From contig NC_084845.1 of assembly GCF_033115175.1 (NCBI RefSeq), positions 2,668,501-2,732,500 of the forward strand: 64,000 bases of DNA, read 5' to 3'. Source of the DNA: Lepus europaeus (taxonomy: Eukaryota; Chordata; Mammalia; Lagomorpha; Leporidae). The notes under the pieces were generated by a model. That model searched no databases. It saw only the letters and a list, made by a program, of their open reading frames with translations, and had not been told where the DNA came from. Both the position numbers and the translations under genes were made by a program. Positions 33,061 to 54,228 of this stretch are shown here, piece after piece (the first letter of the stretch is position 1; every line of letters starts with the position of its first letter).

Positions 33061-33340
33061 ATGGCGGCGCTGGATCTCACCGACCTGGACCTGCTGTGGT
33101 TCCTCCAGACTCTCAGTGACAAGCAGTTCCAGAGCTTTAAGGACTGTCTGGAACAAGAGCCCCTGGTGCTGGGCCTCACGCAGCTCCCGCTGCTTCCGCT
33201 CAGGAGGGCCGGGCGGGAAGAGCTGGTCGACCTCCTGACAGCCACTTACGAGGTCCAGTACACCTGGATGATGGCCAGCAACGCGTTTGACGAGATCGAC
33301 CGCAAAGACCTCTGTGAGAGGATCAGAAGCAGGCAGAGCC
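33061..33340 (+). CDS. NLRP11: NLRP11 coding exon 1: pyrin domain
   Basis: It encodes residues 1-93 plus one base: MAALDLTDLDLLWFLQTLSD onward through DRKDLCERIRSRQS. The ATG at 33061 gives the N terminus expected for NLRP11. An in-frame ATG at 32980 would add 27 residues and is preceded by an in-frame TGA. The donor is CAGAGCC before GTGAGT. A T-rich acceptor (TTTGTTTTAACCAG) ends at 32914, so the exon probably begins at 32915 with 146 nt of 5' UTR. Confidence 0.9.
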
Positions 33341-36077
33341 GTGAGTGAGGCCCTGAGCAGGGTGGGGGGCGGCAGCGGGGTTTCAGGAAGCTCGTTTCTT
33401 TTCTTCTTTCATGATTGACAGGCGGTTGTAGAGACATGATTGACGTACGATGGTGACTATCCACAATTCAGAGCTGGAGGTCAGGAAGAGCGGGCTTGGA
33501 TTGGGGTGGGCTGTGGCCGGCTGGTGACTCGCCCGCTCTGCCCCTGTTGTCAACTAACGGCCTTTGAGAAAGCAGCCAGAGGCTGAGACCCCGGGAAAGT
33601 GCCGGCCAGAGGAGGTCCCAGCGTGGCGCTTTGCCCCGGCACAGCAGGGTCCACGCGGTGTTTCAAACGACCTGCAGAGACCGTGAGGATTCGCATCCCA
33701 GGGCCTCTGTGGAACAGGTCGGGTCCGGAGGCCCCTTCAGTCCCTGGCATGCCCAGTAGAAAGAAGCAGAGAAGCCAAGCCGTTGGGAGAGATCGCTAAG
33801 GTCCCGAGTTCAGTCCCTAGGGGGCAGAGGTGTAGCTGACTATGCATCCCAGGGTTTTTTCTTGTTGTTTCTCCGTCCTCCACCTGGGAAGACTCGGATT
33901 CCTACAGGGACCATCCAGGCAGGCGACACCAAGGTCCACTCGCAGCTGCCTGGAGGTAAAACAAGTCTTCAGGCTCACAGCAGGCTGAGGCTCCCTTAGC
34001 TGAACGGCTGGGTCCAGAGCATCTTAGCGTTTGCATTTAGGAAAACTGGCGTCGGCATCGCGATGTGTTTGGGGGAGGGGACCCAAGCCGAAACACAAGT
34101 CACTGATGCGTCACGTACGCCGTAGCTACCCCGAAGGCAGTGTTAGGGGACATTTCTGGCGCACCTGGGTTTGAACATCTCCAGTCCCACGAGGTCAGGA
34201 GGAATTTACTGCTGGGTGTATCGCAGCTCAGCTTTCGGCTCTCAGAGGCTCAGCCTGTACCAGCCCTTCGGCTCTTGTCCTCCTGACTGGTCTGAGCGAC
34301 AAGAAGACTCCAGGCGGTCCTCAGCCGTAGCCCAAGAGAAGTCGCGTTAGACGGCTGCACACGCTGCGTGATGGCCGTAGGCTCTAAGAGCAGCCAGGTT
34401 CTCTGATGTGACGAGAAACCCTGGAGGTGGGGACCGTTCTGGGCCTCTTGGGACAGTCACTTGCTGACAACTATTTTTCAAAAAGGTGATGACTTGTGGC
34501 GGAAGCAGCACCCCCTCGCGGGCCTGGGCCTGGTGGGGTAGTGGCACAGAATGAGGGGTGTGGCCAGGGGTGTGGCCGGGAGCCATGGCATGTATCTCAC
34601 TCGCCCACCTTATTTGAAAACTGAAAATGCTTTGACCTTTATCTTTTCACGTCTTCTCTCATAGGACGCGTTTATAATCAGACAAGATAAATTCAGTGTA
34701 TAGCTGAATATTGAAAGAGTACAAAAAAATGAATATAGAAAAATAGAAACAACCCTGCTCTTATCACTAAGTGTTAAGATATTTTAAAGTAAAAAAATCT
34801 GAAACTGAGGCTGGTGCTATGATTGGCAGGTTGGGCTGCCTCCTCCAGTGCCAGCATCCCATATGGGCACCAGTTCAGGTCCCAGCTGCTCCACTTGTGA
34901 TCCAGCTCTCTGCTATGGCCTGGGAAAGCAGCAGAGGACGGCCCAAGTGCTTGGGCCCCTCCACCACTTGGGAGACCAGGATGAGGCTCCTGGCTCCTGG
35001 CTTTGGCTTAGCCTGGCCCAACCCTGGCAGTTGTGGCCATCTGGGGAGTGAACCAGAGGATGGAAGACCTCTCTCTCTCTGTGTGTCTCTCCCTGTATCT
35101 CTCTGTAACCTTGCCTCTCAAATCAATAAATCTTTAAAAAAAAATCTGAAACTGTCCCCATGCTGTCCCTCCCAAGAGGTAATGACTTAGCAGGCTTCGT
35201 GTGTATCTTTCAATAAACTTATGTCACTCAGTGTATCAGATCGACTTTAGTGGGCACAGGGGTTATAATACATAAAAAGCTTCAGATAAAAAAAAATCCC
35301 ATTAGCGAATCTGCCTGTTGGATGCAGGGGGTTAGGGGAGATGATTGTGTCACTGGCTAGTGAGAGACAGACGCTTCCCACATGGAGGGCCCACGGGCCA
35401 GCCCTGCAGAAGGCCTAGGGTGATCTGCGCTGGCCAGTGAGGTCCCAGACACACCACAGTATCACGGTGACGACCCCTGATGCAGATGACACTTCTTAAA
35501 AATGGGTACCTTGGGACCAGCACCATGGCTCACTTGGCTAATCCTCCGCCTGCGGCGCTGGCATCCCATATGGGCACTGGGTTCTAGTCCCAGTTGTTCT
35601 TCTTCCAGTCCAGCTCTCTGCTGTGGCCCAGGAGGGCAGTGGAGGATGGCCCAGGTGCTTGGGCCCTGCACCCACATGGGAGACCAGGAGGAAGCGCCTG
35701 GCTCCTGGCTTCGGATCAGTGCAGCACCAGCCATGGTGGCCATTTGGGGGCTGAACCAATGGGAGGAAGACACCTCTCTCTCTCTCTCTCTAACTCTAAG
35801 TCTAACTCTGTCAAATAAATTAAAAACTTTAAAAAAATAAAAATTGGTACCTTATTTCTATGTTAATGTAATATTAACACAGAGAATTCAGACTCTGTAT
35901 AGCTCATAGATGTAATTCTAAGAATATAAAGATGATCTCCCACTCTCCCTCTCTGTTTTTCTTCATCCTCCTCCTCTTTTCTTTCTTCCCCCTACCCATT
36001 TCTTCATGTTCTAGTTTTAGAGGTTACATTTTTAAAAATCTACTTATTTATTTGAAAGGCAGAGTTAGAGAGGCAGA

Positions 36078-36112
<35 letters not shown>

Positions 36113-39100
36113 CTTCCATCCACTGGTTCACTTCCCAGATGGCTGCAAGGGCTGGTGCTGCACCAATCTGAAGCCAGGAGCCAGGAGCTTCCTCCCAGTC
36201 TCCTGCACAGGTGCAGCGGCCCAAGGACACGGGCCATCTTCTACTGCTTTCCCAGGCCATAGCAGAGAGCTGTATCAGAAGTGGAGCAGCTGGGACTCGA
36301 ACCTGCAGCCACATGGGATGCCAGCACTGCAGGTGGAAGCTTTACTCACTGCACCACAGCACTGGCCCCGAGGGCGTCTGTTGAAGGATCAAGAAGAAAT
36401 GATAAGACAACTTCAGATTCTATTGGATGGCAGAGTTGGGTCAACTCAACCTCTTTGTGTTTAAGCAGCATGCGACAATATCCTAGTTTCTGTGTTTATG
36501 CTGGACAGCAGTGAGTAGAAATACTGGGTGAAACTGCTTTTACATTTTGAGCTTTTACACGTGTTCTGCATTTCTCCTGTGCTCGCTGGTTCAGGTCACA
36601 AAGAGATAGACAAAGTTCTCGTAGGAAGGAAAGTCCTATACCAGTGGGAACAATGCCCTTTTGCGGAGGTGCACAACTACTTCTACGGTGAAATTGCCAT
36701 CAACACGTTACACGTACTGCAGAATTCGTATACGACTAACAGCATCTACTCAGCTAAGAACCTTAACGTGTTCCTGTTCGGAGAAGGAGCAATCGGGAAA
36801 ACCATGGTGATAAGGATGGCGGTGCTAGGGTGGATCAAGGAGGAGATTTGGAAGGACACAATCTCCTACGTTGTTTACCTCACTTCTCACGAAATCAACC
36901 AGATCACCTGTTGCAGCTTGGTCGAGCTCATCTCCAAAGACTGGCCGGGTGGCCACGCTCCAGTGGCAGACATCCTGGCTTGCTCCAAGAATCTCCTGTT
37001 CATCCTTGAAGACTTGGACAACATAAACTGCAGCTTAAACGTGGACGAGCTTGCCTTATGCAGCGACAGCAGACAGCAGGTGCCAATGTCGGTTCTGCTG
37101 GCCAGTCTGCTGCAGAGAAAAATGGCTCCGGGTTCCTGGTTCCTCATCTCGTCCAGGTTCGGCGGCGAAACCACCATGAGGACGCTGATGAAGCACTCGG
37201 ATTACTGCCTCACCCTACAGTTCTCGGACGAAAGGAGGAAGCTGTATTTCACCTTATTCTTTCGCAACGAGCAGAAGGTGATGACAGCTTGCAGGCTTGT
37301 ACACGACAATGAGATGCTCATCAGCTTGTGTCAGGTCCCCGTGTTATGCTGGGTCACTTGTACCGCTCTGAACCAGCACATAGGCAAGGGCGATGACCTA
37401 AAACTCTCCTACCAAACACACACTGACGTCTTCACCCGCTTTCTTGCCGATACACTGACATCTGAGGCTGGAGCGGCAGGCGGTCAGCATCGACTGGTCC
37501 TCCTGGAACGTCTTTGCACGCTGGCCGTGGAAGGGCTGCTCCACGACACCCAGAATTTTAGTGACGAGGACCTCAGGAGTGTTGGTTTGACCGAGGATGA
37601 TGTCTCCGTGTTGCAGGCCCTCAAGATCCTCGTGCGGTGCAGCAATATTAAAGACCGTCACACGTTCATACACTTGAAGGTCCAAGAGTTCTGTGCGGCC
37701 ATTGCGTATATGATGGTACTGAACAGTTGCCAAATCCCCTCGGCCAGTAAAAAGCTCAAAGAGAAAAGGGAAACATACCCTGATTTCAGTCCAGTAACTG
37801 TATCCATCTTTGGACTTCTTAATGAGAAGAGGAGAAAAATTCTCGAGACGTCCCTTGGCTGTCAACTACTGGTGGAGCCGCTCAGACAGTACTTTCGGCA
37901 ACAGGTGGCGTGTCTGAGTCACAATTCAAGAGCGACGGAATACCACATGCCCGTGTTCTACTGCCTCTTTGAGAACCAGGAGGAAGAATTTGTGAAACAG
38001 ATCATCGGCTTTTTCTTGGAGGCTACTGTGAGTATTCGAACGAGCAGAGACCTGGTGGTTTCGTCGTATTGCCTGAAGCACAGCCAGACCTTGCGAAGAC
38101 TGAAGCTGAGTGTGCTGTTTGTCTTTAAACACAAGGATCCCAACGTGAAGCTGACGGCTCGGTGAGTCTTGTGAAAAGCACAACTTCATTCTCTGTGTTC
38201 CTAAGACCTCCCCCCCCCCCCCCCCCCCCGGTGCCTGCTGACCGTGACGACGCTGGTACTGGAGAGACTGTAGAACTTAGAGTCCTCACTGATGTCTCGA
38301 ATCAAAGCACCGGTTTGGACATCTCTATGCTGCAGTTTAAACCGGGTTTCTGGGTTAAACCTCAGCAGGACTGGTACTTGGGGCCACGGAATGCTTCGTG
38401 GTCAGGGGCTGAGCTGGCCGCGGGAGGCTGTTTAACGGCACCCCTGGCCTTGCCAAGTGTCTCTGTGAGGCTAGCTTGCCTCATGGTGAGAATCAGTATT
38501 TTAATCTCGGTTCTTCTTTATGTTGCGTGGCTCAGCTGAGGTTATCCTCACGGAATCGTGACAGGACACAACAGCAGTTCCTGTCGACTGTACTTCCTAG
38601 TAGTTGGCATTTTCACGTCCAAAGGCACTTGGCATTTTCACGTCCAAAGGCACTGTACTCGATCGGTTGTATCTTGTCTGACCTCAAAATTACTTTCTTC
38701 ATGGGTCTGGATGTTATTGTTCCTACCTGGCCATATTTTATTTCTTCCCACCTGGTACTCGGGCTGAATCGGTGAACAGCTACTCTGAAAAGAGCCGTTA
38801 ACGTGTGGGCTGGATTGAACGGATTCTACTGTGCGGTGACGTTTGTGTTCTGTGTAGTCAGGTGAGAAACCTCGCCTACTGGAGAGATATCTGCTCGCTG
38901 CTCCACACCAGCGAAAACCTCCGGGAGCTGGAGCTCTGTAACAGTGAACTTCACAGCACCTCGGAAAGAATTCTGTGTAAATCGCTGACACATGCCAGCT
39001 GTCGGCTCCAGACTCTCAAGTAGGTGCCTCCAATCCCAACCTCCAATTTCCCCGAGGAATAACAGGACCCTCCTTTTCATTTTCTGGTCTGGGATCATTC

Positions 39101-42100
39101 CAAGTGATAAAAGCAGTACTGGAAACAAACTAAACCAGGTGAACAGAGCATACGCAGTGGGGCTGCGGTGGGGTGGGGAATTCCTGAAATTCCTGGCCGT
39201 GTTTCAGAAATTAGAAGATGGAGATGCTGTGTCACACGTTGTCCGGGTGAACAAAGATGCTGTATCACTTCATTTTTGTTTTTTGTTTTTTAAGATTTAT
39301 TTATTTGAAAGAGTTACAGAGAGAGGTATAGACAGAGAGAGGTCTTCCATCCACTGGTTCACTCCCCAGATGGCTGCAACAGCCAGAGCTGAGCCGATCT
39401 GAAGCCAGGAGCCAGGAGCTTCTTCCAGGTGCAGGGGCCCAAGGACCTGGACCATCTTCTACTGCTTTCCCAGGCCACAGCAGAGAGCTGGATCGGAAGA
39501 GAAGCAGCCAGGACTAGAACCGGCACCCATATGGGATGCCAGCACTTCAGGCCAGGGCTATACCCACTACGCCACAGCGCTGGCCCCATACTGTATCACT
39601 TTGGATTGTATTCAAGCACTTGTAACAGAGTAGCCTTCTCTTCCCCAAGGGCAGCTCTTGTGCACAGGGCTTGATTTTCCAACCCACACAGAGGCCTTGT
39701 GGGAAGCCTATGGTAGATAATCCAGCAGGTCCAGTCTGTCTCGGTCTAGGGCCCCATACACCTCTCTTAGCTATCTGCAGTGGACCTCCTAGGATCAAGA
39801 TGCCCTTGGCCATGAGATTGGTGAAGCCCCAGGCACTGGGCCTGCCCTGAAGGCAGGAAGCAGCAGGAGGAAGGGAGGGGCAGGTGCGCCTGGAGCGGGG
39901 CAGGTGCACCTGGAGCCGGGCAGCTTCCCTGCTGGAACTCTTGCTCGGATCACTTTGGTTCGCATCTCATTGACCTGCTCCTCCTGTCATCACTTAACCT
40001 TGCAGAATGCAAAGAGGGGCTGAGAAAGAAGTCTTTATTCTTGGTTGCAGTTGGAAATAGTAAAAAACTGGAGTTGTCCTAAAGAAGAAAGCAAACAGAC
40101 CATCATTGCATTGGGAACAATGCCTCTGCCTGTGAAGTGGGGGCCATTTTGAGATCAGATTGCTCTACTTCCAGTCCAGCTCCCTGCTAATGCTCCCGAG
40201 AAGGCAGCAGGAGATGGCCTTGGGCCCCTGCCACCATGTGGGAGACCTGGAAGCAGCTCCTAGCTTCAGCCTGGCCCAGCTCTAAGCCAGTATGGCCATT
40301 TGGGGAGTGAACTAGGAAATGGAAGAGCTCTCTGTAACTTGGCCTTTCAAATAACCAAAAAAAAAAATAATAATAAAGAAAGAAAAAGGTTTTTTTAAAG
40401 AAGCAAAAGTATGTCGGGGTGGGAGTCCACCAGCTTCTTCCCCAGATGTCCGTCAGAATAAGGTGAAATCTTGTCAAACGTCGCTGAGCAGCCAGCACTG
40501 GCCTGAGTTTGTTAGCAGCTCTGCAGGAAATGGTGCTGAATGACTCAGTATGGCCAAACACAAGGGGGTGTGATGGTCTCGGAGCCTGGCAGCCCAGAGG
40601 CCAGCTTTATTTGGGTAGAAGACCTGCTTGGCTGCAGGTCTAGTCTAGGTACCTGGGTTCTCTCAATGAATGGGAAATAGATGCCCCTGCTGCTCATCCA
40701 GTGAGATTGAACACGGACACACATGCGTTTTAAGACAGATAACAGGTTATGGGGAGAGGGGAAGAATACCAATGAATGTTTCTTACGAGTATACTTACGT
40801 GGTGGGGGGAGGGGTTCATGTACTAAGCTCCAGAGAGGTGAGATTGGCCACAAAGGAAGAGATGAATTAGGTGGATGGTCGGTCACAGAGCGCCCCTGGG
40901 AGAGTGGTCCACGGAAGAAGGCTTGGTGTGCTCAGAGGAGCCCAGAGCCCCCCGTGCGCAGACCGCTGTGTGGGGGGTGGTCTCGGGGACATAGCGCATA
41001 GGTGTGTTTGGCATCAGCAGTATCAACGATGGATTTTTCTGGCATGGGGGTGGGGCTTGGAGCAGACATACCACAATATGAGTTGCATTTTAATAGCTCA
41101 TGATGGAATCCGGAATCTGCTCTACAGTGCAGCAGGCTATGAGAAAACCTGCCAAGAAGGTCCTTCTCTGGGTGATCCTCTCTTCACTGGAAGTCTCCTC
41201 TTTATCTTCCACAGGTTGTCAAATCTCACAGTGGGTTCTGAATATGACGACTTGTTCAAGGCTATTGCCCAGATCGAGAGCCTGACTTTCCTGAGCCTGA
41301 GTCGCATGGACATGTCCCCAAAGATGTTTTCACTTCTGCATGAGATGCTGGATAGTCCAGCGTGCAACCTTCAGCACTTGTGGTGAGCAGCGCTCAGCCT
41401 GTGTGCCAGCGGCACGACCGGGCAGTGCCGCAGATGCCCCTGAGATGGTTCTACCGCTGCCTCCTTGGTACCACTCACTCCTTGATGGCCTTTTCGCAGA
41501 TGGTTCTCTCCTGCCAACATGACTCCTATCATTTTGGTTGATTTCAGTTTCTACATAGGTGATCTTTTCTGTAATTGGCTTGACGCCTATTTCTTTAATG
41601 GTCTAGTTCCTCTGACCACTCAGAGCCCTGCCGGGGTCTGCAACCTTACCCAAGTATGAACTAGTGTAGGATGAGATTAGAAGCAGAGGTCTCTACTGAC
41701 TTCCCAGTGTAAGTGTAGGTATCCTAGCACTTGGTGGGGACTGATTGCACTTGACAGAGAAACGGCGTAGAAAAGAGCCCCACTTACTCCACTCGAATTG
41801 TTCTTGCAGCTTGATGAAATGTGACCTGAAAGCTAGTGTGTGTGGACACGTCGCCTCGCTCCTTGTCGACAGCAAGAAGCTGAAGAAGCTGACCTTATCC
41901 AACAACCCACTGAAGAACGATGGGGTGAAGATACTGTGCGACGCCTTGCTCCACCCGAATTGTACTCTGGAGTCGCTGGTGTAAGCTGGCTTGGGCAAGC
42001 CCACCACTTAGGAACTGGGACTCGGGTTTGAAAGTCCGTGTGTACAGCCAAGCACCGGAGGGGAAAGCGCAGGGAAGCCTGTTAGCTGAAGAACCATTGA

Positions 42101-45100
42101 GTGTCTGAGCTTGGGCAGGTCTGGGTTTGTAGTCAGCATTGCCGATGAATATACAGCAGCAGGCTGGCATGAGGTTTTCTCAACTTGCTCTTCACCACCT
42201 GGAGCACAAGGTCACCATACAACTGACCTTACCACCTTGGAGAGGGAGTTCAGTGTGGTGCCAACACGATTCCACATGTAGACCCTGGGCTACAGCAGCG
42301 ACGTGATGAGAGAAGGAACCTGCGTCATTGCCTTGACAGGAGCACAGAGGCCAGGTGTGGTGTGGGACGTGCTGTATCCAGGAGCACAGGAGGGAAGCCG
42401 AGGAGTGGGGCTTGGTGCTAGACCGCCTTGAAGTTGAGGTCTATTTTCCTAGCTTTTCTTTCAAGGTGGCCGGTGATGGGATCCTCCTGTGCCTGTGCCT
42501 GTCCCTGTCAATTGTTTCTATCATGGAAGGCAATCTCTTTCTCTGCTCTGGGGAAGTTTCTAGAAAAGTAGATGTTTCAGGTGGTCAGGGCACAGAAAAT
42601 AGAGCAAAGGCAGAAAAAATAGGACAGAAGTAAGGCATAGATGCACAGATGAAAAGGTGGGAGCTTGCACTAGTGCTCAGAAAGACAAAATGGAATAAGT
42701 AACTAGATGGGTTAAAGGACATGCCACCTAAATTCAGTTTAAATTAAATTCAGTTCTAAATTACCAAAGGTTAAAGAATGCAGTAGGGCTTATTGTTTTC
42801 AGACTACATGGAGTTCCCAAACATGACAGTCTAAACTGAAATGGTATTCCTTGCGTTCTCTATTCATATATGTTTCTATGGAAACATGTATGTGTGTGAT
42901 CACAGGATAACATCGTGAACCCTAGTAGGATCGCATAATATTGCTTTATAATTGTTTCCAAAATCCCAGATTGTTGGAGGATATTTCTGACCCCCACAGG
43001 GATTCCGTAAAAAGTGATTGCCAACTTGACTGAATACATGCTACGAGAGAAGGAAACGTGGAAAAAGGGCGCCGGATCACTGGCTCGGCACTGATCCAAA
43101 CAGGGCCACCCTCATCTCATCTTCACAGCTCACAGCTTTGAGATACAAATCATGTCCCAGAAAACTCACCTATTTAAGTGCGTAGTCAGTGAATTTTTAG
43201 CACACGGTTAACGATCACCACAGTCTGATTTTAGAACACTTGCCCTCGTCCTGTGAAGTTGCTGGCACGCACTCCTTCATAATTCCCATCTATATTTCAA
43301 ATATTGCAGATATAGTCAAGCTCAAAACATTTTTTTCTCTTAATTTTTTTTAATTTGACAGGCAGAGTTGGACAGTGAGAGACAGAGAGAAAGGTCTTCC
43401 TTCCGTTGGTTCACCCCCCAAATGGCCACCACAGCTGGCGCCAATCCGAAGCCAGGAGCCAGGTGCCTCCTCCCGGTCTCCCATGTGAGTGCAGGGCCCA
43501 AGCACTTGGGCCATCCTCCACTGCACTCCCGGGCCACAGCAGAGAGCTGGACTGGAAGAGGAGCAACCAGGACCAGAACCAGTGCCCATATAGGATGCTG
43601 GCGCCGCAGGCAGAGGATTAACCTAGTGAGCCATGGCGCCGGCCCTTTTCTCTTAATTTTTAAGTAGGCAAGGAATTTCCAAATCCAAAAGCAGGGAAAG
43701 AAATTGTAGTAATCTAAGGAAAATGTCTAAAAATTCACATTAGATTTTGACCAAATCTTAGTGATGGAAAATATTAGCTTCCCAGTCAGCTGATAGCATT
43801 GGCTTTGGAAAAACTTTGACAAAAACAACAGAGGGGGTTTCTTTAGTTTTTCTTATTTTTTGACTTTACAAAAAAAGGTGTAATTTCTAAAAATTGAACA
43901 CAGTTTTCTACACAAAGAGAATACAGCCAGTGTCACTGGTGTTCTGATGGCCAAGACAGCATACGCAGAGCCCCCGTGATGCACAGCCCCATTCCTCGGC
44001 TTCCCTCCTGTGCTCCAGGATACAGCATGTTCCACACCACACCTGGCCTCTGTGCTCCTGTCAAGGCAATGACGCAGGTTCCCCTCTCTCATCACGTCGC
44101 TGCTATAGCCCAGGGTCTACGTGTGGAATTGCATTGGCTCCACACTGAACTCCCTCTCCACAGTGGTAAGGGGTTGTGTTGGGATCTCATGCTCCAAGCT
44201 GAGAACTCTGATTAGTAAGCATAATAATACTTAAAAACGTTGTCTAGAATCTAGTAGGAGTCGGTAAAAGCTGATATTTGACTTCTAACACAAGTTCGAC
44301 ATTCAACAAAGCTTAAATAGCCAAACCTGTATTAAACGTTATTTTCAGTATGATAAATGTAGCATATTAAAATAGACCTTACCATTTAGAGGTAACTGTG
44401 GAACTATTCACAGTGAGAAACTGGGGTGCCCAGTGTTTGCTTCAAAATGTGGCTGAGAAGTGGGTAAGGTTCAGAGAGCAAACAAGACTGACCATGGACA
44501 GAATGTTGCTAGGGATGGTGCAGGACCCAATCTAGCGTTGTCTGATGTTTGAAATACCATTTTAAGAATGATGTAAAACCACCCAGGTACTCTAGGAAAA
44601 TATCCTAATGAAGTAGATTGAAGATATAGATGGCAAATACATATTAAGATATTAATAAGTATTACATGTTGTTGATGTAATCTTAGCTATAGGGTCACGG
44701 TTTGTTAAATAGTTTTATAAAATGTTATAAAATGATATTGCTAAGCTTAAAATCCTAGAGGCACAGAAATCCAGATCTTGTCATAGATGTGATCATTTCT
44801 TGCCCATGCATAGAACAAAAGAAATCCAGAAAAGCCATGACAATACTGCTTCATGAGTACAGTTGGACCTGAGGGTTGGGTGCCAGGACCCCAGGCACAT
44901 ACCAAAATCTCCAGTGCTCAGGTCCCTGAGCCATAACCTACATGCATCCTACCCCACACAGTGCTTTAAATTCCCTTGAGGTTACTGCTGTGACGATGCC
45001 AAGGCTGTGAGGTAGCCACGCTGTGTTGTTACGAGAACAAGGGCAAGAAAGAAGCCTGTGTGCCTTCAGTACAGACTCAAGACTGCCTAGTGTTTTTGAT

Positions 45101-48100
45101 CCATGGTTAGTTGACTTCGTGAGCTGAGGATATGGAGGGCTGTGTGTATTAAAATCTGAATTTCATATCAGTTCCATATGCCACAGTTTTCTCTATTTCC
45201 CAATCATTCACAAGGTGAAGACCATTTCTAGCCCATGGGAGCTAGATCTGCCCACTGGCTGCACTTCGCCAATCCCTGCTCGGGCTTGTCTAATCCCCAC
45301 ATAGGAACAAAGACCCAGGGTGGTGATGTCCACGTTTTTTAAAGAAAACAGCTAGAGATAAAGATTGGAAACGAGTGAAGCTTTCAAACATTGGCGATAG
45401 ATTAAAACCACGAAAACGGCAATGGTGGGCGCCACAAGGTGGGTTTGCCAACCCACAGCCAGAGGGTTCCAATGCACTGCCCATCTTCGCTGTCTTAAGA
45501 CTTTTCAATAGTTCCCTTATTCACTTGGAAGCAGCAAAATAACTCTGCTAGAATCATAGAATTTTTAAACCAAAAGCAATCTTAGGATTAAGTCAAATCA
45601 AAAGCCGAGTTACTGAAGTCCTCCGACTCTCCAGTCGGTGGAAGTGGGAATGTGACTGTTCCCATGCCCTGCTTGTGGCGTGCATCCTGTATTTGAGCCT
45701 CTGCACCACGTTAGGTACTTTCTAACCCTTCTTGTCAATGGGAAAGTGACGGGTGGCCACGCGGGGCTGGGGCAGCAGAAGGCAAAGCGACCTCCGAGGG
45801 CCTGGGGTGGGCGGCCACACGCAGCCTTCCCTGAGCCGATTCTGCTGTCGCTGACGCGCGGCTCTCTGCTGGTGTTCCCACGCAGGTTGCTCTTCTGCTG
45901 CCTCACCGAAGCGTGCTGCAGCTCCATCGGGAGAGTTCTTCTGCTCAGCAAAACCCTGAAGCATCTAGACCTGAGTGTGAATTTCCTACAAAACCACGGA
46001 GTGTTGGTCTTGACCCTGCCTCTGATGTTTCCCACCTGCAAATTACAGGAGCTGGAGTAAGTTCCCCTGGCTCCCTTGGAGGTCCGCATCCCTGCCGGGT
46101 AAGGGGTGAGTGCTGGAGCAGCCAACAGAAGCAAGGAGACTTGAGCAACGCTCCCCGTGACAGGCAGCATAAAAGCAGGGCAAGATCTGATTGTGAAACT
46201 AAAAGGGCAGAGAGTAAAAATCCCCGAAGCTCAGTGTCACAGAGACCCAGCTAGCAACGCTGGGGTGGTGGGAGGTAGTGACGCAGGAGGAGGGCCCCGG
46301 GGAGTCAGCCCTGCCCTGGCCCCCGTGTTGGTGGAGGAGGGGAAACGTGGGGGTAGACAACAATGAGGGCATCTGTGTTTGGCAATAGCTTTTTTGGAAA
46401 AAGGGGGTGTTGGGAGCGTAGCTAGTGGGGAGACAGCGGAGCTGAGCCCACTGGTGTGGAAGCATCGAAGGGTGCTTCAGAAAGTTCATGGAAAATGCAG
46501 TTAAAATGTTTATTTTGGTGAAAAAATCTGAAGTCCATGAATGGTCTTCTCATGTGTATTCTCATGAATGTTTTACAGATCCTCGACACACACACACATG
46601 TACACACTAACACACACATGCACACACGTACAGTCACACGTGCACACACACACACTGTGCTCCACCAGAGGGCGGCCTTGGTCACGAGGCAATGGCCTTG
46701 GACTAAGCTCTCGGGGGAGGCAGGTACAGACACACACATACACACACATACACATGGACATGCACATTCACACATGCACACACACATTCCCACATGTACA
46801 TAGACACTCACATATGTGTGCACACACACACTGTGCTCCACCAGAAGGCTTTGGTCACGAGGCAATGGCCTTGGACTAAGCTCTCGGGGGAGGCAGGTAC
46901 AGACACACATGTACACACGTACACACTCACATGTGTTCACATACACACTGTGCTCCCTTGGTCACGAGCCAATGGCCTTGGACTAAACTCTTGGGGGATG
47001 CAGGTACAGACTGGGCAGGGCCTCGCCTCCATGCCAAACAACAAACATTCTCAACTTCTGAGTGGATGAGAGACATCATCTCTCTGAAAAACAGTTACTG
47101 TGGTTTTTATCCGTTGGAGATACTTACGTTGAAGTCGTATTTTGAAAATGTAGCTCCAGTGTCCTCCTTCGGCTCAGAAATATGAAAAATGTAAATAATA
47201 AACACGTGTACTTCTCATAGGCCAGCAGCACCGTGGTTCATGAGCTCCTGAACAGAAATGCCCAATGCACTGTGATAATTTAATCAGCGTTAGGGTGTCC
47301 TCTTATTTGAAATGTGTTTTTGACGTGTAGTTACAACCTAAATCCACGTCTCACTTTAATTTGGGAATAGGCGGGTCGGTGGGAAGGTAGAAACTCTGGG
47401 GGCCTCCTTTCTTCTACAGTCTTGGCTCTTCCGGCCTCTCCTAGGAACCTGTCTTAGGGAGCGTGGCATAACCCTTGTTTCTCTCCTTTGGTTTCCATGG
47501 GTGCTCAGTAGGTTGAGGTACATTCCCTCAGTGCCGTGGAGTAGGAGCCAACATGCGTTGTCTCTGAAAGATAAATACTGTTTGCAGCTTGGTGGGCCAC
47601 ATGGCCTCTGTTACAACCGCTCAACTCTGCCAAGCCGATGAGCAGCCGTGAACAAATCGATCACTGAACGGATGTGCCAGGTCCCAGTGAAACTCGCCCT
47701 GCAGACCCAGGAGTTGTCAGGATTCGGCTCACAGCTGCGTTTCACCTGTAGACCCCAAATGCGATGCTGCGCTTAGTCTTCAAGTCTACCCACCCACTCG
47801 GTCTGGGCTGGGGCCTCTCCTGAGAGCTCCCATAGTCATCTCAACCTCAGCATCGTTGGTGGCACTTCCTTTGCCTCTCAACTTGAAGATGTGGCTGTGC
47901 TCTGTCACTGCAGGTGTGGTTGGCACGTCGTTACTGCTTCACGATTGTTTTTTTAAATGGGCTTGTACATTTTTTAAAATTTGACAGGTAGAGCTTACAG
48001 ACAGTGAGATAGAGAGACAGAGAGAAGGATCTTCCTTCTATTGGTTCACCCCCCAAATGGCTGCTATGGCCGAAGCTACGCCGATCCAGAGCCAGGAGCC

Positions 48101-51100
48101 AGGTGCTTCCTCCTGGTCTCCCATGCGGGTGCAGGGCCCAAGCACTTGGGCCATCCTCCACTGCCCTCCTGTGCCACAGCAGAGAGCTGGACTGGAAGAG
48201 GAGCTACAGGGACCAGAACCGGCGCCCATGTGGGATGCCGGCGCTGCAGGCAAAGGATTAACCTAGTGTGCCATAGCACCAGCCCCTTCGTGATTATTAA
48301 ATAGAGAATACGCTTAGGGTTTTCTAGAAACTACTTCCAAAGTTACTCAGCAAATAATTACGAAGTGTGTACTAGTCAGCAGACGCTCCTCTAGGTGGCT
48401 TGGATACATCAGTGAACACACAAATCCAATGTCTTAAAGGATCTTGCTTTGGCACTGTGGAAGACAGAAGATAAATAAGACATGAGCACATTATGTATCG
48501 TTAGGCTAGGGACCAGCAAATTAGGTCATCTGGGGGCCCGGTCTAGTCCTTAGCCTGTTTCTGAAAATAAAAGTTCTGAAACAGTCATTCTTGTATATGG
48601 TGTCTGCAGGTGCTTCTGACCTATTATGGCAAAGGTGAGCGGCTGTGGCAGATACCATGGGGTCCATGACGCCTAAAATGTTTATCATATGGCCCTTTAT
48701 AGGAAAAGGCTGTTCCCTCCATCGGACATGAAAGGTGCTATGGGAACTCGGAACATAGTGGCCATTTCTTTTTGTTTGTTTGTTTTTCAAAGATTTCCTT
48801 TATTTTTTTTTTAAACGTCAGAGTTACACAGAGAGAAGGAGAGGCAGAGAGAGAGAGAGGTCTTCCATCTGCTGGTTCACTCCCCAGTTGGCCACAATGG
48901 CTGGAGCTGTGCTGATCCGAAGTCAGGAGCCAGAAGCTTCCCCTGGGTCTCCCACGTGGGTGCAGGGGCCCAGGGACTCGGGCCATCTTCTACTGCTTTC
49001 CCAGGCCATAGTATAGAGCTGGGTGGGAAATGGAGCAGCCAGGACTCGAACCGGCACCCATATGGGATGCTGGCACTGCAGGCAGCAGCTTTACCCACTG
49101 CACCACAGAGCCAGCCCCCATAGTGGGCATTTCTAAGCAGGATCCATCAGTGTAAGCCTCATTGACAAGGGGACACTGGAGCAGCACCTTGGTGCTGATC
49201 TCGGTGGTGCAGTCCACTAGGGTTGGGCTTTTAGGGGAGGACACTGGCCAGGGGGCCAGGGCAGAGGGCTGGCACATAAGCATCCCACAGTGCTGGGTGA
49301 ACAGTGAGAAGGGCAGGAGGATGGGCAGTGAGTGCAACTGTGGCAGTAGAAGATGTGGGCAACACGGGCAGGGAAAACAATGGCAGAGCGGGCGAAAACA
49401 CGCACAAGTGTGAGGACTTGGGGAGGAAGAACCATGGGGCGCATTTTTGGTTATAAACGCAGTGCGTTTAGCTCTGTCAGTACTGTCGGTTGTTGACATG
49501 AACACTGGACGGTAGAAGAGTGGATCTCAGTAGAGTTTGTCCAAAGTGATCGTTTGGAGCTCAGGTTCAGCATCGTGGAAACCTGGGTTGGAACTGTGAC
49601 ATCCCGCTGTCTGTGTCCTTAGATGAGAGAGGCTTAGCGTGCCCTGGTTCCAGCTTCCTTGTTTGTCAAATCTGGATAACAGAGACCGCAGGCCCAGTCA
49701 GCAAGTCACGAGCTTCAGATGGTGCCGATACGTTTTATGCCATCTGTCGACATTGACACTGCTTGTGTCCCATCGAGCCCCTTCTTCACGAATGTCGTAG
49801 ACGGGACCAGGAACTTGGCCCTCCGTGACATGAAACCTTTGAAACCGTGGCCACGACTCAAACTCTCGCTCGCCTTTTGCAGGCTGTCTGGCTGCTTTTT
49901 CAACAGTGACGTCTGTCGGGATATCGCCTCCGCCATCGTTAACAACCAAAACCTGAGGAGCCTGGAGCTTGGGAGCAATCACCTGGGAGACGCGGGCGTG
50001 ACGCTGCTGTGCGAGGCCTTGCGACATCCCAGCTGCAAGCTGGAGAACATCGGGTGGGTACCTGGCGGAGACGTCGCACTCTGTGTTCAGAAAACCTCAG
50101 GCAGGGGTGAGGACAGGACCAGGCTGGCTGGGAGGGGAAAGCTCAAGCATGGTGACACCCTGCTGTGTGATACGCTCTTTGTCCAGCGCCTCACAAACAT
50201 CAAGTTCACACCTGTCGACTCTGCGTGTCTCTCTGCGAGGACTGGGTCCTGTCTTACCTGGGCGTCTCCTCGTTGCAGGCTGGAAGAGTGCATGCTAACC
50301 AGTGCCTGCTGCGAGTCTCTCGCATCCGTTCTTAGGAGCAGCAAAACGCTGAAAAGACTGAATCTGCTTGGGAACAAGTTGGATGACAAAGGAATTGTGC
50401 AGCTTCTTCAGGGCTTGGGCCAGCCAAGCTGTGTGCTTCAGACCCTGGGGTAAGCGGATGCTGTTTTCCTGGCGTAGCGGGCAAGTCTGTGTTGGGATGG
50501 TCGCGAGTATATGAGGTGGTAGTAAGCCCTGTTGCCAGCTTCAGATACCTTAAAATGAGAATGCTTTTCCCTTGTTGCTATGTCGAGAATGCGTGTCAGA
50601 CCTTTAGAGCGTAGTATGTTGTTAATGTTGAGTAAAGTGTAACAGTTGGTACTTCCTGTTACGTGTGATCTAGGGAGGAAAACGCCCTATACGTCAGTGT
50701 TCTCTGTGTTCTTTGCTTGGGTCCTTTATTTTAGAGAACTTACATAGCCAGCTCTCAGCCCAGCGTTCTACAGCTCGAAAACAAAGGTCGCCTTCCTTTC
50801 TGTGTGAACTGCTGTGCAGCACGTTTCTGTCAACGTGGGGTTTGACACACTTCTTACCTCGTGGTATGGGAGCCAGGAGTCCCGTCGTAGCTTTGTCGGT
50901 CCCAAGGATCTCTGATGAGGCTGCCATCCACGTATCATCCACACTGCTGGTGTGGCGTGATCCAGTTTCTGTCGGGCTGTTGGATGGAGGCCCTTGGTGC
51001 GTGGATGGCTACTGGTGGAAGTGGTATCTTATTTTTACCTGTTAGATGCAAACTACAGATCCCACCTACACTCAAGGGGGTTTTGCAAGGGTGTGGCTGC

Positions 51101-54072
51101 CACAGGAGAGGATCAGTGGAAGCCATCTTGTTTTATCTTTTTACAGATTTACTTACTTGAAAGGCAGAGTTACAGAGAGAAGGGGAACAACAGAGCCCTT
51201 TGATCTGCTGGTTCCTTCCCTAAATGGCTGGCCACAACAGCCAGGGCTGGGCCAGACTGAAGCCAGGAGCCTGGAACTCCATCCGGGTCCCCTACACGGA
51301 TGATGGGAGCCCAAGCATCCAGACCATCTTCCACGCTTTCCCAGGCACGTTAGTAGGGAGCTGGATCCGAGTGTGGCAGCTGGCACTGAAGTCAGTGCTG
51401 ATGTGGGCACGGTGCCGGCACTGTGGGCGACAGTTTAACCCGCTGCACCAGAACACCGGCTGCCGGAAGGTATCTAAAAAACTGCCCACCATGAGTTTCT
51501 TCCATACTTTGTCCACATATCTAGAAAGTTGCGGGGAAACCTAGGATTCGGTTCCTAGTCTATTATGTTCTTCAGTCTTTAAACATTTACGTTTTCTGAT
51601 TAACATTGAACAATTGCTTAAATGTCAAGGCTACAGGTGATATCCTTAAGAATGTCCACAGTGTGTACCGACCGGATTGAAGCAGTCACCCGTTCGCTCT
51701 CCCCGTTTTTACTCTGTCCAGAGTCGTCAGTGTTCAGGTTGCTGTGCCTTGGATTAGAGACCCCGGAGTCAGTGTTTGGGTTGCTGTACCTCGGGTTAGA
51801 GACCCCGGAGTCAGTGTTCGGGTTGCTGTGCCTCGGGTTAGAGACCCCGGAGCCGTCAGTGTTTGGGCTGCTGTGCCTCGGGTTAGAGACCCCGGAGCCG
51901 TCAGTGTTTGGGCTGCTGTGCCTCAGGTTAGAGACCCCGGAGCCGTCAGTGTTTGGGCTGCTGTGCCTCGGGTTAGAGACCCCGGAGTCGTCAGTGTTCG
52001 GGTTGCTGTGCCTCGGGTTAGAGACCCAGTACAAGTATCCTGGACTCACCATGCTCAGGCACAGGCAGGGCGTTGCATTTCCCACTTGGCTTTTCTCAGA
52101 TGGAGAACCAGGATATTTATCTCAGGACGCTTATGGTTAGGTCTGACTCAGTCTGCGTGAGACTTGGCTCTGAACTGTTTTCCTGTATCCTCCCCGAGTG
52201 ACACTTTTCCATAGGCACAAATATTGAGTCACAAAGATGCATAGAAAAACTCAATTCAAACACCACAACCTTTCCAAATCCTTGACTCCCTTTACCCAAA
52301 GCTCACCTCATCTTCCAAATTGCAAAACAGCACAATAAATGCAGCCTCTGTTGGCCACGCGAGAAGTTCCATGATGGGAGGGATTTCTTCCTATTCAGTG
52401 TTACGTCCCAGCACCTACGTGCTCAACAACGCTAAAGAGAAGGAATGAGTGGAATTGGGGTAAGAACGGTATTTCGCGCAGTGTTCACAGATGGAGGGGT
52501 GCAGAGTACGTGAAGGTGACCATGAATCCCTCCCTAGGCTTGAAGAGAGGACTTCAGTGTGAAGGAGCAGGTGTGCTGTGTCTCCAGCTGTGCTAGTGCA
52601 TTGTCGTGGAAGGCTTTGACCCTCGGTGCTGGATTCTGTGAACCACGAGTGGTGCCACGTGTGATGAGGCTGCAGTGAGCTAAGTTTGCCAAGACTGAGT
52701 GCACAGCGATACGGAGGCCACGAATCCCAACTCCACCCTCTTCGCCCTGGCTCGTACTCCAAACCTCATGGAGAGACCTCCTAACTCAGTGTTTCTAGTC
52801 CGCAGGCAGCATGGGATCCACCCCCCCAGTGCCCAAAGGGTGATACATGGGAGATTAGTAATTAAGGTAGCAAGATTGAAACAATGTAGTTCAAAAAGTT
52901 CACATAAAATGGAGTCAGAGGGGCCGGTGCTGTGGTGTAGCAGGTAAAGCTGCCACCTACAGAGCCAGCATCCCATTAGGGCGCAAGTTCTAGTCCTGGC
53001 TACTCCACTTCTGATCCAGCTCTCTGCTGTGGCCTGGGAAAGCAGTAGAAGATGGCTCAAGTGCTTGGGCCCCTGCACCCATGTGGGAGACCTGGAAGAA
53101 GCTCCTGGCTTTGGATTGGCTCAGCTCAGGCTGTTGTGGCCATTTGAGGGGTGAACCAGCAGATGGAAGACCTCTCTCTTTCTCTCTCTCTTTTTGCCTT
53201 TCAAAAAAAAATAATTTTTTTTTAAAAAATGGAGTTGAGGGCTGGCGCCGTGGCTCAATAGGCTAATCCTCCACTTGCGGTGCTAGCACCCCGGGTTCTA
53301 GTCCCGGTCAGGGCACCGGATTCTGTCCTGGTCGCTCCTCTTCCTGTCCAGCTCTCTGCTCTGGCCCGCGAGTGCAGTGGAGAATGGCCCAAGCCTTGGG
53401 CTCTGCACCCGCATGGGAGACCAGGAGAAACACCTGGCTCTGAGCTTCGGATCAGCGCGGTGCGCCAGCCGCAGCGGCCATTGGGGGGTGAACCAACGGT
53501 AAAGGAAGACCTTCCTCTTTGTCTCTATCTCTCCCTGTCCACTCTGCCTGTCAAAATAAATAAACATTTTTTAAAAATGGAGTTGAAAGGCAATTTTGGT
53601 GCCAAAAACTTTTGAAATCTGTGTATATGTGGGATCTTCAAAAAGTTCATGGGAAATGCATAATATGAAAAAATATGGATTTTAAGCTTTTTTGCATCAA
53701 AAGAAAGTTGCCTTTTAAGTAAATTTTTCCATGAACTCTTTGAAATGCGCCTCAGTAACTTTTTGAAATAATGGGATTCTCCCTCTGTATTTCCTCAGGC
53801 TGGAAGTGAGCAACGTGGGTGCAGAAACCCAGAAGCTGCTGCAGGCCGTGAAAGAGCGAAATCGCAGCCTGGAGTTTGTGAGTCAGTCCTGGGCCAGGCG
53901 AGAAGGCAGAGGGGCCGGTGGCTGCGCTGACTGTCCGAGTCCTTCAGAGCCGAGCTCTGCGAGGCAAAAGGAAGCCTGGCACTTAATCACCTCCAGAATG
54001 CCCAGGCAGTTCAGACCCTTAGAAGGGTCTGCCGCAGGCAGTGGGCAGCCCCCTCAGACGCACTGTGCATGA
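33061..54072 (+). CDS. NLRP11: NLRP11 orthologue, complete spliced gene
   Basis: A cytosolic NLR-family receptor. Human NLRP11 has been linked to cytosolic LPS sensing, inflammasome assembly and type I interferon control. Nine coding exons: 33061-33340, 36595-38161, 38858-39019, 41215-41382, 41810-41980, 45886-46056, 49883-50053, 50279-50449, 53799-54072. They total 3135 nt with the stop, predicting 1044 residues (human about 1033). All introns are GT-AG with matching phases and there are no internal stops. Diagnostic NLRP11 stretches include DLDLLWFLQTLSDKQFQSFK, KNLNVFL, HEINQIT, LLFILEDLDNI, SLMFPTC-like LRR ends and LMKCDLKAS. Walker A is GEGAIGKT at residues 156-163. The divergent neighbour is NLRP4, as in human. 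NLRP13 or NLRP8 are poorer fits because the PYD and NACHT wording follow NLRP11. The start could instead be the in-frame ATG at 32980. Confidence 0.92.
33341..34790. other. NLRP11: NLRP11 first coding intron, 5' half
   Basis: No transposon recognised; no coding pattern. Confidence 0.5.
34808..35137 (+). mobile_element. CSINE
   Basis: AGGCTGGTGCTATGATTGG start; 17-base duplication AAAAAAATCTGAAACTG at both ends. Confidence 0.95.
35513..35838 (+). mobile_element. CSINE
   Basis: GGGACCAGCACCATGGCTC start; duplication AAAAATGGGTACCTT, one mismatch. Confidence 0.95.
36030..36368 (-). mobile_element. CSINE
   Basis: TTATTTATTTGAAAGGCAG start with (GA)n, ACCACAGCACTGGCCCC end; about 225 bases before the NLRP11 NACHT exon. 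Confidence 0.94.
36595..38161 (+). CDS. NLRP11: NLRP11 coding exon 2: NACHT and associated domains
   Basis: A 1567-nt exon, open throughout. The acceptor CTGGTTCAG precedes GTCACAAAGAG; the donor is GCTCG before GTGAGT. It encodes KVLYQWE, the P-loop GEGAIGKT (36780-36803), SYVVYLTSHEINQ, the Walker B region LLFILEDLD (residues 227-235), SWFLISSR and QEFCAAIAYMM. The Walker B acidic pattern (ED-L-DN) is not the usual D-G-x-D-E, but human NLRP11 as I recall it has the same unusual pattern, so this looks ancestral rather than decayed. Confidence 0.94.
38210..38229 (+). repeat. Poly-C run of 20 near an NLRP11 donor
   Basis: An uninterrupted C tract begins 49 bases after the NACHT-exon donor of NLRP11. 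Its exact length is likely unreliable in sequencing. Confidence 0.9.
38858..39019 (+). CDS. NLRP11: NLRP11 coding exon 3: first LRR-region exon
   Basis: A 162-nt exon encoding QVRNLAYWRDICSLLHTSEN, LRELELCNSELHS and SCRLQTLK. The acceptor is TTCTGTGTAG before TCAGGTGAG. The alternative AG three bases on (TCAG) would break the phase with the previous exon. The donor is CTCTCAA before GTAGGT. Confidence 0.9.
39271..39590 (-). mobile_element. CSINE
   Basis: TTTATTTATTTGAAAGAG start; duplication CTGTATCACTT. Confidence 0.95.
40125..40372 (+). mobile_element. CSINE (old, 5'-truncated)
   Basis: CAGTCCAGCTCCCTGCTAAT, TGGGAGACCTGGAAGC and CCTTTCAAATAACC mark it. Confidence 0.8.
41215..41382 (+). 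CDS. NLRP11: NLRP11 coding exon 4: LRR exon
   Basis: A 168-nt exon encoding LSNLTVGSEYDDLFKAIAQI and MFSLLHEMLDSPACNLQHL. The acceptor TATCTTCCACAG precedes GTTGTC; the donor is CTTGTG before GTGAGC. It matches the NLRP11 unit with MFSLLH. Confidence 0.9.
41810..41980 (+). CDS. NLRP11: NLRP11 coding exon 5: LRR exon
   Basis: A 171-nt LRR module encoding LMKCDLKASVCGHVASLLV, LKKLTLSNNPLKNDGVKIL and CDALLHPNCTLESL. The acceptor TTGTTCTTGCAG precedes CTTGATG; the donor is CTGGT before GTAAGC. This is among the best-conserved NLRP11 exons here. Confidence 0.92.
43349..43645 (-). mobile_element. CSINE
   Basis: AATTTGACAGGCAGAGTTG to CATGGCGCCGGCCC; duplication TTTTCTCTTAATTTTT. Confidence 0.95.
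44860..45142 (+). mobile_element. Tigger/MER2-like non-autonomous DNA transposon
   Basis: It begins CAGTTGGACCTGAGG and ends GGATATGGAGGGCTG, imperfect inverted ends. The interior has ACCAAAATCTCCAGTGCTCA, ATAACCTACATGCATCC and GATCCATGGTTAG, matching the MER2/Tigger2 pattern I know. A TA precedes it. It is in an NLRP11 intron. Confidence 0.65.
45886..46056 (+). CDS. NLRP11: NLRP11 coding exon 6: LRR exon
   Basis: A 171-nt LRR module encoding LLFCCLTEACCSSIGRVLLL, LKHLDLSVNFLQNHGVLVL and LMFPTCKLQELE. The acceptor GTTCCCACGCAG precedes GTTGCTC; the donor is CTGGA before GTAAGT. The NHGVLVLTLPLMFPTC segment is characteristic of this NLRP11 repeat. Confidence 0.92.
46474..46565. mobile_element. 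Truncated copy of the palindromic mini-element
   Basis: GGTGCTTCAGAAAGTTCATGG and AAAATGCAGTTAAAATG resemble the left half of the element at 53629. The right half is lost at the CA-rich array. Confidence 0.5.
46590..47015. repeat. Compound CA-rich higher-order repeat
   Basis: CA/CACACATG-type microsatellite alternates with a unique-looking segment (TGTGCTCCACCAGA... AATGGCCTTGGACTAA...) that appears three times, near 46655, 46830 and 46950, progressively shortened. It is in the NLRP11 intron between exons 6 and 7. Confidence 0.88.
47950..48285 (-). mobile_element. CSINE
   Basis: AATTTGACAGGTAGAG start, CATAGCACCAGCCC end; imperfect duplication CTTCACGATTGTT. Confidence 0.92.
48508..48720. 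mobile_element. DNA-transposon relic (hAT-type, GGCAAACTACGGCCC family)
   Basis: It reads CTAGGGACCAGCAAATTAGG at one end and CCCTTTATAGGAAAAGGCTG at the other, with CCTGTTTCTGAAAATAAAAG and CCTAAAATGTTTATCATATG between. This order matches a common mammalian hAT-like short element. Family name uncertain. Confidence 0.55.
48770..49118 (-). mobile_element. CSINE
   Basis: CGTCAGAGTTACACAGAG start; 16-base duplication CATAGTGGCCATTTCT with one mismatch. Confidence 0.95.
49883..50053 (+). CDS. NLRP11: NLRP11 coding exon 7: LRR exon
   Basis: A 171-nt LRR module encoding LSGCFFNSDVCRDIASAIV, LRSLELGSNHLGDAGVTLLC and SCKLENIG. The acceptor CGCCTTTTGCAG precedes GCTGTCT; the donor is ATCGG before GTGGGT. 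Confidence 0.92.
50279..50449 (+). CDS. NLRP11: NLRP11 coding exon 8: LRR exon
   Basis: A 171-nt LRR module encoding LEECMLTSACCESLASVL, LKRLNLLGNKLDDKGIVQLL and SCVLQTLG. The acceptor CCTCGTTGCAG precedes GCTGGAAG; the donor is CTGGG before GTAAGC. The intron before it is only 225 bases. Confidence 0.92.
51138..51466 (-). mobile_element. CSINE (diverged)
   Basis: TTACTTACTTGAAAGGCAG start, GATCTGCTGGTTCC inside, ACCAGAACACCGGCTGCC end. Confidence 0.85.
51720..52027. repeat. 42/45-bp minisatellite, about 7 copies
   Basis: GAGACCCCGG recurs at 51757, 51799, 51841, 51886, 51931, 51976 and (as GAGACCCAG) 52021, so two units of 42 and four of 45 bases. Periods divisible by three keep both strands open, producing spurious ORFs. 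It lies in the last NLRP11 intron. Confidence 0.93.
52080..52275. repeat. Unclassified dispersed repeat, copy A
   Basis: Shares CAAATATTGAGTCACA and the preceding CTCAGATGGA with the right edge of the window, in the same orientation and order. I do not recognise the family. Confidence 0.6.
52916..53225 (+). mobile_element. CSINE, first of a same-site pair
   Basis: GGGGCCGGTGCTGTGGTG start; target AAAATGGAGT at 52906 and 53226. Confidence 0.95.
53240..53573 (+). mobile_element. CSINE, second of a same-site pair
   Basis: GGCTGGCGCCGTGGCTC start; AAAATGGAGTTGA at 53226 and 53574. About 225 bases upstream of the last NLRP11 exon. Confidence 0.95.
53629..53758. mobile_element. Palindromic mini-element (TTCAAAAAGTTCATGG family)
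   Basis: Ends TCTTCAAAAAGTTCATGGG and CCATGAACTCTTTGAAATGCG form an inverted repeat of about 20 bases around an AT-rich centre, a MITE-like structure. It sits just before the last NLRP11 exon. Confidence 0.6.
53799..54072 (+). CDS. NLRP11: NLRP11 coding exon 9: C-terminal tail and stop
   Basis: The final exon starts after CTGTATTTCCTCAG with GCTGGAAGTGAGC. It encodes VGAETQKLLQAVKERNRSLE, matching the NLRP11 pattern of TQ-LL-VKER. A non-repeat, basic and serine-rich tail of about 60 residues follows (RRMPRQ-like ITSRMPRQFRPL...), ending HCA-stop at 54070-54072. The tail is present in human NLRP11 too but is poorly conserved. Confidence 0.88.
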
Positions 54073-54222: not shown

Positions 54223-54228
54223 AATAAA
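54223..54228 (+). terminator. NLRP11: NLRP11 polyadenylation signal AATAAA
   Basis: A canonical AATAAA lies 151 bases past the NLRP11 stop, followed by GGTTAAAATG. This would give a short 3' UTR of about 170-180 nt. Confidence 0.75.

Follow-up and report, generated by a model that had tools for sequence, protein, structure and literature searches.

In human cells, NLRP11 is reported to associate with NLRP3, ASC and caspase-4, to bind LPS and to limit TRAF6 (excerpts of PMC12077127 and PMC11742652, among other sources). The gene has been described as absent from mouse and rat (PMC2735741; an excerpt of PMC11742652), and papers up to 2025 still state that it occurs only in primates (e.g. PMC12077127, in excerpt). 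Its supposed restriction has shaped both the questions asked and the systems used, as one 2025 study argues from it to the recognition of a human-adapted bacterium (PMC12077127, in the part of the text available), while a 2024 review describes NLRP11 work as confined to human cell culture because mice do not carry the gene (PMC11742652, likewise in part). Two unusual features of human NLRP11 have also been described: its Walker B motif departs from the usual sequence at two positions (reported in the available part of PMC6301626), and NLRP11 has been called an exception that does not carry the PhhCW proline (an excerpt of PMC7583971).

The current analysis concerns a NLRP11 gene in the European hare, Lepus europaeus. 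The window analysed is a 64,000-nucleotide stretch of contig NC_084845.1, in which script-based exon finding yielded nine NLRP11 coding exons on the + strand at 33061..54072, next to NLRP4 on the opposite strand. The features are as follows.

2405..15512, - strand: NLRP4, arranged head to head with NLRP11; seven of its exons match the Lepus europaeus NLRP4 protein P0054, last coding exon unmapped
33061..33340, + strand: NLRP11 coding exon 1, PYD with the ATG start; Pfam PYRIN; within NLRP11 at 100/100 in the PYD tree
36595..38161, + strand: NLRP11 coding exon 2, NACHT-WHD-HD2, with Walker A GEGAIGKT and Walker B LLFILEDLDNI; covered by Pfam, the NACHT tree and AlphaFold
38858..39019, + strand: NLRP11 coding exon 3, LRR; in the LRR tree of exons 3-8
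41215..41382, + strand: NLRP11 coding exon 4, LRR; in the LRR tree of exons 3-8
41810..41980, + strand: NLRP11 coding exon 5, LRR; in the LRR tree of exons 3-8
45886..46056, + strand: NLRP11 coding exon 6, LRR; in the LRR tree of exons 3-8
49883..50053, + strand: NLRP11 coding exon 7, LRR; in the LRR tree of exons 3-8
50279..50449, + strand: NLRP11 coding exon 8, LRR; in the LRR tree of exons 3-8
53799..54072, + strand: NLRP11 coding exon 9, C-terminal tail with the TGA stop; weakly conserved
54223..54228, + strand: AATAAA polyadenylation signal, ~150 bases 3' of the NLRP11 stop

The exons measure 280, 1567, 162, 168, 171, 171, 171, 171 and 274 nt and are separated by eight GT-AG introns, the first in phase 1 and all the rest in phase 2. 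Joined together, they form a coding sequence of 3,135 nt that encodes 1,044 amino acids and is interrupted by nothing other than its terminal stop. The original prediction of nine exons with matching phases and no stops is borne out in full, including its exact coordinates from the ATG at 33061 to the TGA ending at 54072, and the poly-A signal it had listed is the AATAAA at 54223. Within this single reading frame, Pfam finds PYRIN, NACHT, NOD2_WH, NLRC4_HD2 and LRR_6, all above their own cut-offs, and a complete PYD-NACHT-WHD-HD2-LRR architecture is present. The start codon is slightly uncertain: the ATG at 33061 aligns with the starts of other NLRP11s, and an alternative in-frame ATG lies 27 codons 5' of it at 32980. 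It had also been claimed that every exon carries NLRP11-specific sequence. This is true of exons 1-8, which share 45-70% identity per exon with a human NLRP11 sequence, but exon 9 is weakly conserved, with 27 of 81 aligned residues matching that same sequence. The window also contains three minisatellites (3325-3677, 25428-26049 and 51721-52027, with units of 44, 55 and 45 bp), the last of which sits inside the final NLRP11 intron.

The closest described counterpart is the NLRP11 of the plateau pika, Ochotona curzoniae (P0004), a fellow lagomorph with the same architecture and Walker B signature, which is the tree partner of the hare gene. It differs from the hare protein in sharing 58% identity over 98% of the query and in its rate of change, as its NACHT end branch is ~3x that of the hare (0.49 vs 0.16). 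The lagomorph order is already represented by the pika record, and the hare gene is a new intact copy of a known gene. Primate NLRP11s, such as those of bonobo (P0023) and macaque (P0011), have the same domains and the same Glu and Asn in Walker B, and the human gene order is shared as well; their identities to hare are 52% and 55%, respectively.

A comparison of the motifs encoded by the NACHT exon gives a clearer view of what sets NLRP11 apart. Walker A is intact in the hare. The first Asp of Walker B is replaced by Glu in all 27 NLRP11 rows and in none of the 37 paralogue rows, while the distal acid is replaced by Asn in 26 of 27 NLRP11 rows (Asp in Myotis myotis) and again in 0/37 paralogues. 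By this distribution, the altered Walker B of NLRP11 would date to the placental ancestor. The PhhCW proline presents a different picture, as it is retained by 22 of the 27 NLRP11 rows, including the hare, and is missing from bonobo, macaque, orangutan and two rhinos. Because most NLRP11s keep the proline, its loss is recent rather than a family trait, and catarrhines and rhinos lost it separately. The hare NACHT exon also gave an AlphaFold model with a mean pLDDT of 85.8. Among the matches listed, the solved structures it most resembles are human NLRP14, bovine NLRP9 and one chain from the mouse egg cytoplasmic lattice; the last (12dl_MA, named NLRP4F in a PDB search) has the top query TM-score of the 50 matches listed, at 0.82. 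A PDB sequence search named no NLRP11, NLRP8 or NLRP13 chain among the best 60 of its 76 matches, some of which bear incomplete names.

Based upon these features, several suggestions can be made regarding function, although for the hare gene its expression, biochemistry and function are all inferred, and the role data are human-cell results. Firstly, NLRP11 may act as a cytosolic PYD-NACHT-LRR scaffold, in which the PYD would recruit partners, the NACHT core would bind nucleotide through its intact Walker A, and the LRR would sense a ligand or partner. Because Walker B is altered family-wide (Asp to Glu, distal acid to Asn), the protein is probably more of a regulated scaffold than a fast ATPase. 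Secondly, its main site of action might be the oocyte and early embryo, as for its relatives NLRP4, 5, 9 and 14, while a second role in macrophages, alongside NLRP3 and caspase-4, would follow what has been reported for human cells. The genomic and structural neighbours of the hare gene include oocyte scaffold NLRPs, and by analogy with these we lean slightly towards a function that is oocyte-first. A rather less probable alternative would be that NLRP11 works mainly in macrophages as an innate sensor or adaptor, engaged with cytosolic LPS, NLRP3 and caspase-4, and that its oocyte expression is incidental. Deletion data from human macrophages indicate that the NLRP11 NACHT-LRR is needed for NLRP3 and caspase-4 activation (an excerpt of PMC12077127), and LPS binding and ASC recruitment have been reviewed as well (PMC11742652, in part). 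However, the same review, as far as its available text goes, reports NLRP11 expression in maturing human and macaque oocytes, with less in THP-1, Daudi and B cells, and notes that studies conflict on the NLRP3 role (PMC11742652). Furthermore, the relatives NLRP4, 5, 9 and 14 are germ-cell genes (PMC2735741).

The hare coding sequence appears to be under constraint. Of 127 columns showing no variation among 25 other NLRP11s, the hare keeps 125, and it matches the consensus at 673/955 columns overall; the corresponding values for pika are 110/121 and 513/928. Of the 16 columns diagnostic of NLRP11, 14 are retained in hare and 12 in pika. A random substitution in the hare coding sequence would create a stop in ~3.2% of cases, and under drift the probability of an uninterrupted frame drops to 5% by 0.6-1.1% neutral divergence, a range calculated by assuming a transition bias and 0.05-0.15 indels per substitution. 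Lengthy neutral drift is unlikely for this reason, and the gene is presumably maintained by purifying selection, the strength of which is inferred. Two protein database searches found no Lepus or Oryctolagus NLRP11 protein, while the NLRP4 of Lepus europaeus was found. Since NLRP4 is recorded as a protein and NLRP11 is not, public annotation may not treat the hare NLRP11 locus as coding. This raises the prospect that the gene is a true orthologue that has recently died or fallen silent in hares, having lost its promoter or splicing before any decay of the frame. Wholesale loss of reproduction NLRPs does occur, as in pangolins (PMC8560141). Yet 3,135 nt and eight introns contain no disabling change, which would be unlikely after ~1% neutral divergence at the assumed indel rates, and the conserved NLRP11 columns are retained, so we regard such a recent death as improbable and continue to view the hare gene as intact and probably maintained by selection.

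The orthology of the hare gene was addressed with a search of about 5.8 billion proteins, in which 7,992 candidates, selected by words and within length limits, were scored and 53 hits obtained. The best match shares 65% identity over 100% of the 954-residue query (E = 0), and chance is thereby excluded. By identity (44-65%), 41 of the 53 hits are NLRP11-like, comprising 18 primate rows, 22 from other mammals and 1 unnamed; of the 22 non-primate rows, 18 bear the name NLRP11 in their source. Identities are highest with colugo (65%), white rhinoceros (63%), manatee (61%) and plateau pika (58%), compared to 37% for a NLRP4 row. For the trees, the hare target was aligned with 26 of the 41 NLRP11-like rows, three of which (P0014, P0027, P0036) do not bear the name NLRP11 in their source, and with 37 paralogue rows: 15 NLRP4, 7 NLRP9, 2 NLRP13, 2 NLRP14, NLRP5, three NLRP12/6 and seven hare NACHT exons, with no NLRP8 reference among them. 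The other 15 NLRP11-like rows were excluded by hand as isoforms, fragments or near-duplicate species. Trees were built for NACHT (64 rows, 513 columns, IQ-TREE LG+G4), PYD (56 rows, 93 columns) and the LRRs of exons 3-8 (50 rows, 338 columns).

In each of the three trees, the hare gene falls inside the NLRP11 clade at 100/100, and it pairs with pika NLRP11 at 100/100 (NACHT), 99/95 (PYD) and 100/98 (LRR). It groups with neither NLRP4 nor NLRP9; in the PYD tree, NLRP4 itself is not recovered as one side of a branch. A tree placing the gene with NLRP4, 9, 13 or 8 had been named in the original prediction as counting against it; the outcome favours NLRP11 in all three domains, with NLRP8 lacking a reference row. 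Identification of the locus as NLRP11 is thus supported, and we hold with high confidence that it is an intact NLRP11 orthologue, one that would have been inherited vertically from the placental ancestor. The notion that the locus is a duplicated NLRP4, NLRP9 or other cluster NLRP, diverged and merely resembling NLRP11, has a negligible probability, for although the locus sits among NLRP4/NLRP9 cluster genes, the family grew through tandem duplication (PMC2735741) and paralogue identities are 25-34% over NACHT, it is opposed by the 100/100 NLRP11 clade in the PYD, NACHT and LRR trees, the separate presence of NLRP4 and NLRP9 nearby and the NLRP11-only Walker B residues of the hare.

Several more specific candidates were likewise rejected. 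The same three trees rule out a paralogue of NLRP4, NLRP9, NLRP13, NLRP14 or NLRP5. A chimera of two NLRPs is also ruled out: the hare gene is not a mosaic, because its PYD and LRR exons on their own also give NLRP11 at 100/100 with the pika partner. Colugo, favored as closest kin by raw identity (65% vs 58% for pika), is ruled out as well, as the trees pair the hare with the fast-evolving pika. Among the candidates scored in the hare genome, the NLRP11 NACHT exon occurs once, and the next best match has 34% identity. Elsewhere, an NLRP NACHT stretch at C3:148752604-148753881 (-) is broken by 7 stop codons and has 32% identity to the NLRP11 NACHT exon.

When examining the distribution of NLRP11, it is evident that the gene extends well beyond primates. 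Non-primate records already exist in the databases for colugo, rhinos, pig, bats, elephant, manatee, aardvark, tenrecs, anteater and pika. Within NLRP11, the NACHT tree places Afrotheria first (tenrec, aardvark, elephant, manatee and dugong), followed by anteater, then bats with rhinos and pigs, and finally lagomorphs beside colugo and primates. The weaker forks are those of aardvark (95/65), anteater (93/70) and the join of lagomorphs with primatomorphs (92/87). The inspected part of the LRR tree puts anteater close to the lagomorphs, and the PYD tree comes from a short alignment; the species order rests on the NACHT tree, while the PYD and LRR trees support the family only. As the NACHT branching follows the species tree, NLRP11 dates back at least to the placental ancestor, and the species that carry it represent all four placental superorders. 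The original prediction of an origin at least as early as the primate-glires ancestor is correct, but too shallow, since afrotherian, xenarthran and laurasiatherian NLRP11s belong to the same clade.

Rodent, carnivore and ruminant NLRP11s are absent from the 41 NLRP11-like rows, a result that applies to the 7,992 candidates scored and depends on their word-based selection, length limits and annotation. Rodents and carnivores did contribute NLRP4 rows to the database results, which makes losses of NLRP11 in rodents, carnivores and ruminants likely. Thus, NLRP11 was apparently lost in several lineages, including mouse, although this is likely rather than proven. The usual comparison species (mouse, rat, dog and cattle) are those reported without NLRP11, and for this reason the primate-specific label could be a sampling artefact. 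We would give about an even chance to the whole of the following, taken jointly: that the label is such an artefact, that NLRP11 arose in stem placentals and has had a fixed Walker B ever since, the mark of a scaffold-type NLR, and that its oocyte and cytosolic-LPS roles predate primates.

Non-primate NLRP11 has even appeared in print, albeit incidentally. On pig chromosome 6, NLRP11 is listed beside NLRP4, NLRP13, NLRP8, NLRP5 and ZNF787 (an excerpt of PMC12674266), and a survey of bats includes bat NLRP11 in its analyses (PMC12730308, in excerpt). In that survey, as far as the available text goes, NLRP11 co-clusters with NLRP4 in two families and falls in a mixed clade in a third, with misidentification as one possible cause (PMC12730308). 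The three bat NLRP11s in our NACHT tree (Molossus, Myotis and Saccopteryx), none of which comes from the first two families of the survey, all fall inside NLRP11. A NLRP11 outside primates had been put forward as new, but in view of these records its novelty is lower than implied. We found no open-access paper stating that NLRP11 predates primates or correcting the primate-only claim. Public records that we found assembled in no open-access paper indicate that a supposedly primate-only NLRP11 is an ancestral placental gene. The intact hare gene, together with the records from all four placental superorders, shows that the primate-only premise does not hold, shifts the question from why primates gained NLRP11 to why rodents, dogs and cattle lost it, and opens NLRP11 function to testing in non-primate animals. 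Under the joint reading given even odds above, hares, rabbits and perhaps pigs would be natural NLRP11 carriers for experiments currently considered to require human cells or humanised mice.

The gene order around the hare locus is a close match to that of human. With the contig reversed, the hare order is an EPN1-like ENTH, NLRP9, NLRP9, a PRY exon, NLRP11, NLRP4, an unassigned NLRP and NLRP5. The minus-strand neighbour of NLRP11 is indeed NLRP4, as originally predicted, and the two genes lie head to head, an arrangement that we take to hold for human as well; on its other side, NLRP11 sits beside an RFPL4-like PRY exon and NLRP9. The human order runs EPN1, NLRP9, RFPL4A, RFPL4AL1, NLRP11, NLRP4, NLRP13, NLRP8, NLRP5, ZNF787 (from part of a wolverine paper, PMC9339297). 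The EPN1-like ENTH pair is located at 2925-2932 kb of the hare contig. The two NLRP9 genes (2836 and 2782 kb) share 54-62% identity with colugo, dog and monkey NLRP9. For NLRP5, which lies at 2617 kb, the identity with monkey NLRP5 is 60%. The PRY exon at 2735.7 kb is one of two on the stretch, the other being at 2896 kb, and is taken as RFPL4-like from its place. Likewise, the hare gene at 2651 kb is called NLRP8-like from its position, and it has 25% identity to NLRP11 over NACHT. Two camelid NLRP13 queries picked up no remnant of that gene in the 13.5-kb gap at the human NLRP13 slot (best E 0.23), which does not prove loss of NLRP13.

Some further observations can be made for these neighbours. 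The hare NLRP9s (L029, C23:2781-2783 kb, +, and L030, C23:2835-2837 kb, -) have opposite orientations, are 57% identical over NACHT and form a pair in the tree. The NLRP at the NLRP8 place (C23:2641-2657 kb, L025 and L026) is open and highly diverged, with a long branch in the NACHT tree (support 82/45). The exon bodies of NLRP4 in the window are identical to Lepus europaeus NLRP4 (P0054), the sole 2 mismatches occurring in three residues past one exon end, whereas its NACHT exon and that of rabbit NLRP4 share 82% identity; rabbit is thus rejected as the source, in favour of the European brown hare or a very near relative among hares. As a tandem neighbour of NLRP11 in the same family, P0054 shares the PYD-NACHT-LRR organization, but it has ~28% identity to NLRP11 over NACHT, belongs to a separate clade, retains the canonical Walker B Asp and has one LRR exon fewer. 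Leporid NLRP4 (hare 924 aa, rabbit 927 aa) does not have one LRR exon that 12 of the 15 NLRP4 rows in the alignment possess, and besides hare and rabbit it is lacking in a human X1 isoform; its site lies between two NLRP4 LRR exons, at 5024-7187 (-) of the window. Papers place the origin of NLRP4 in Euarchontoglires (PMC8560141, PMC2735741), but the NLRP4 rows in the database also include sloth, anteater, manatee, golden mole, cats, bats and mole, with the 15 aligned rows forming one NACHT clade.
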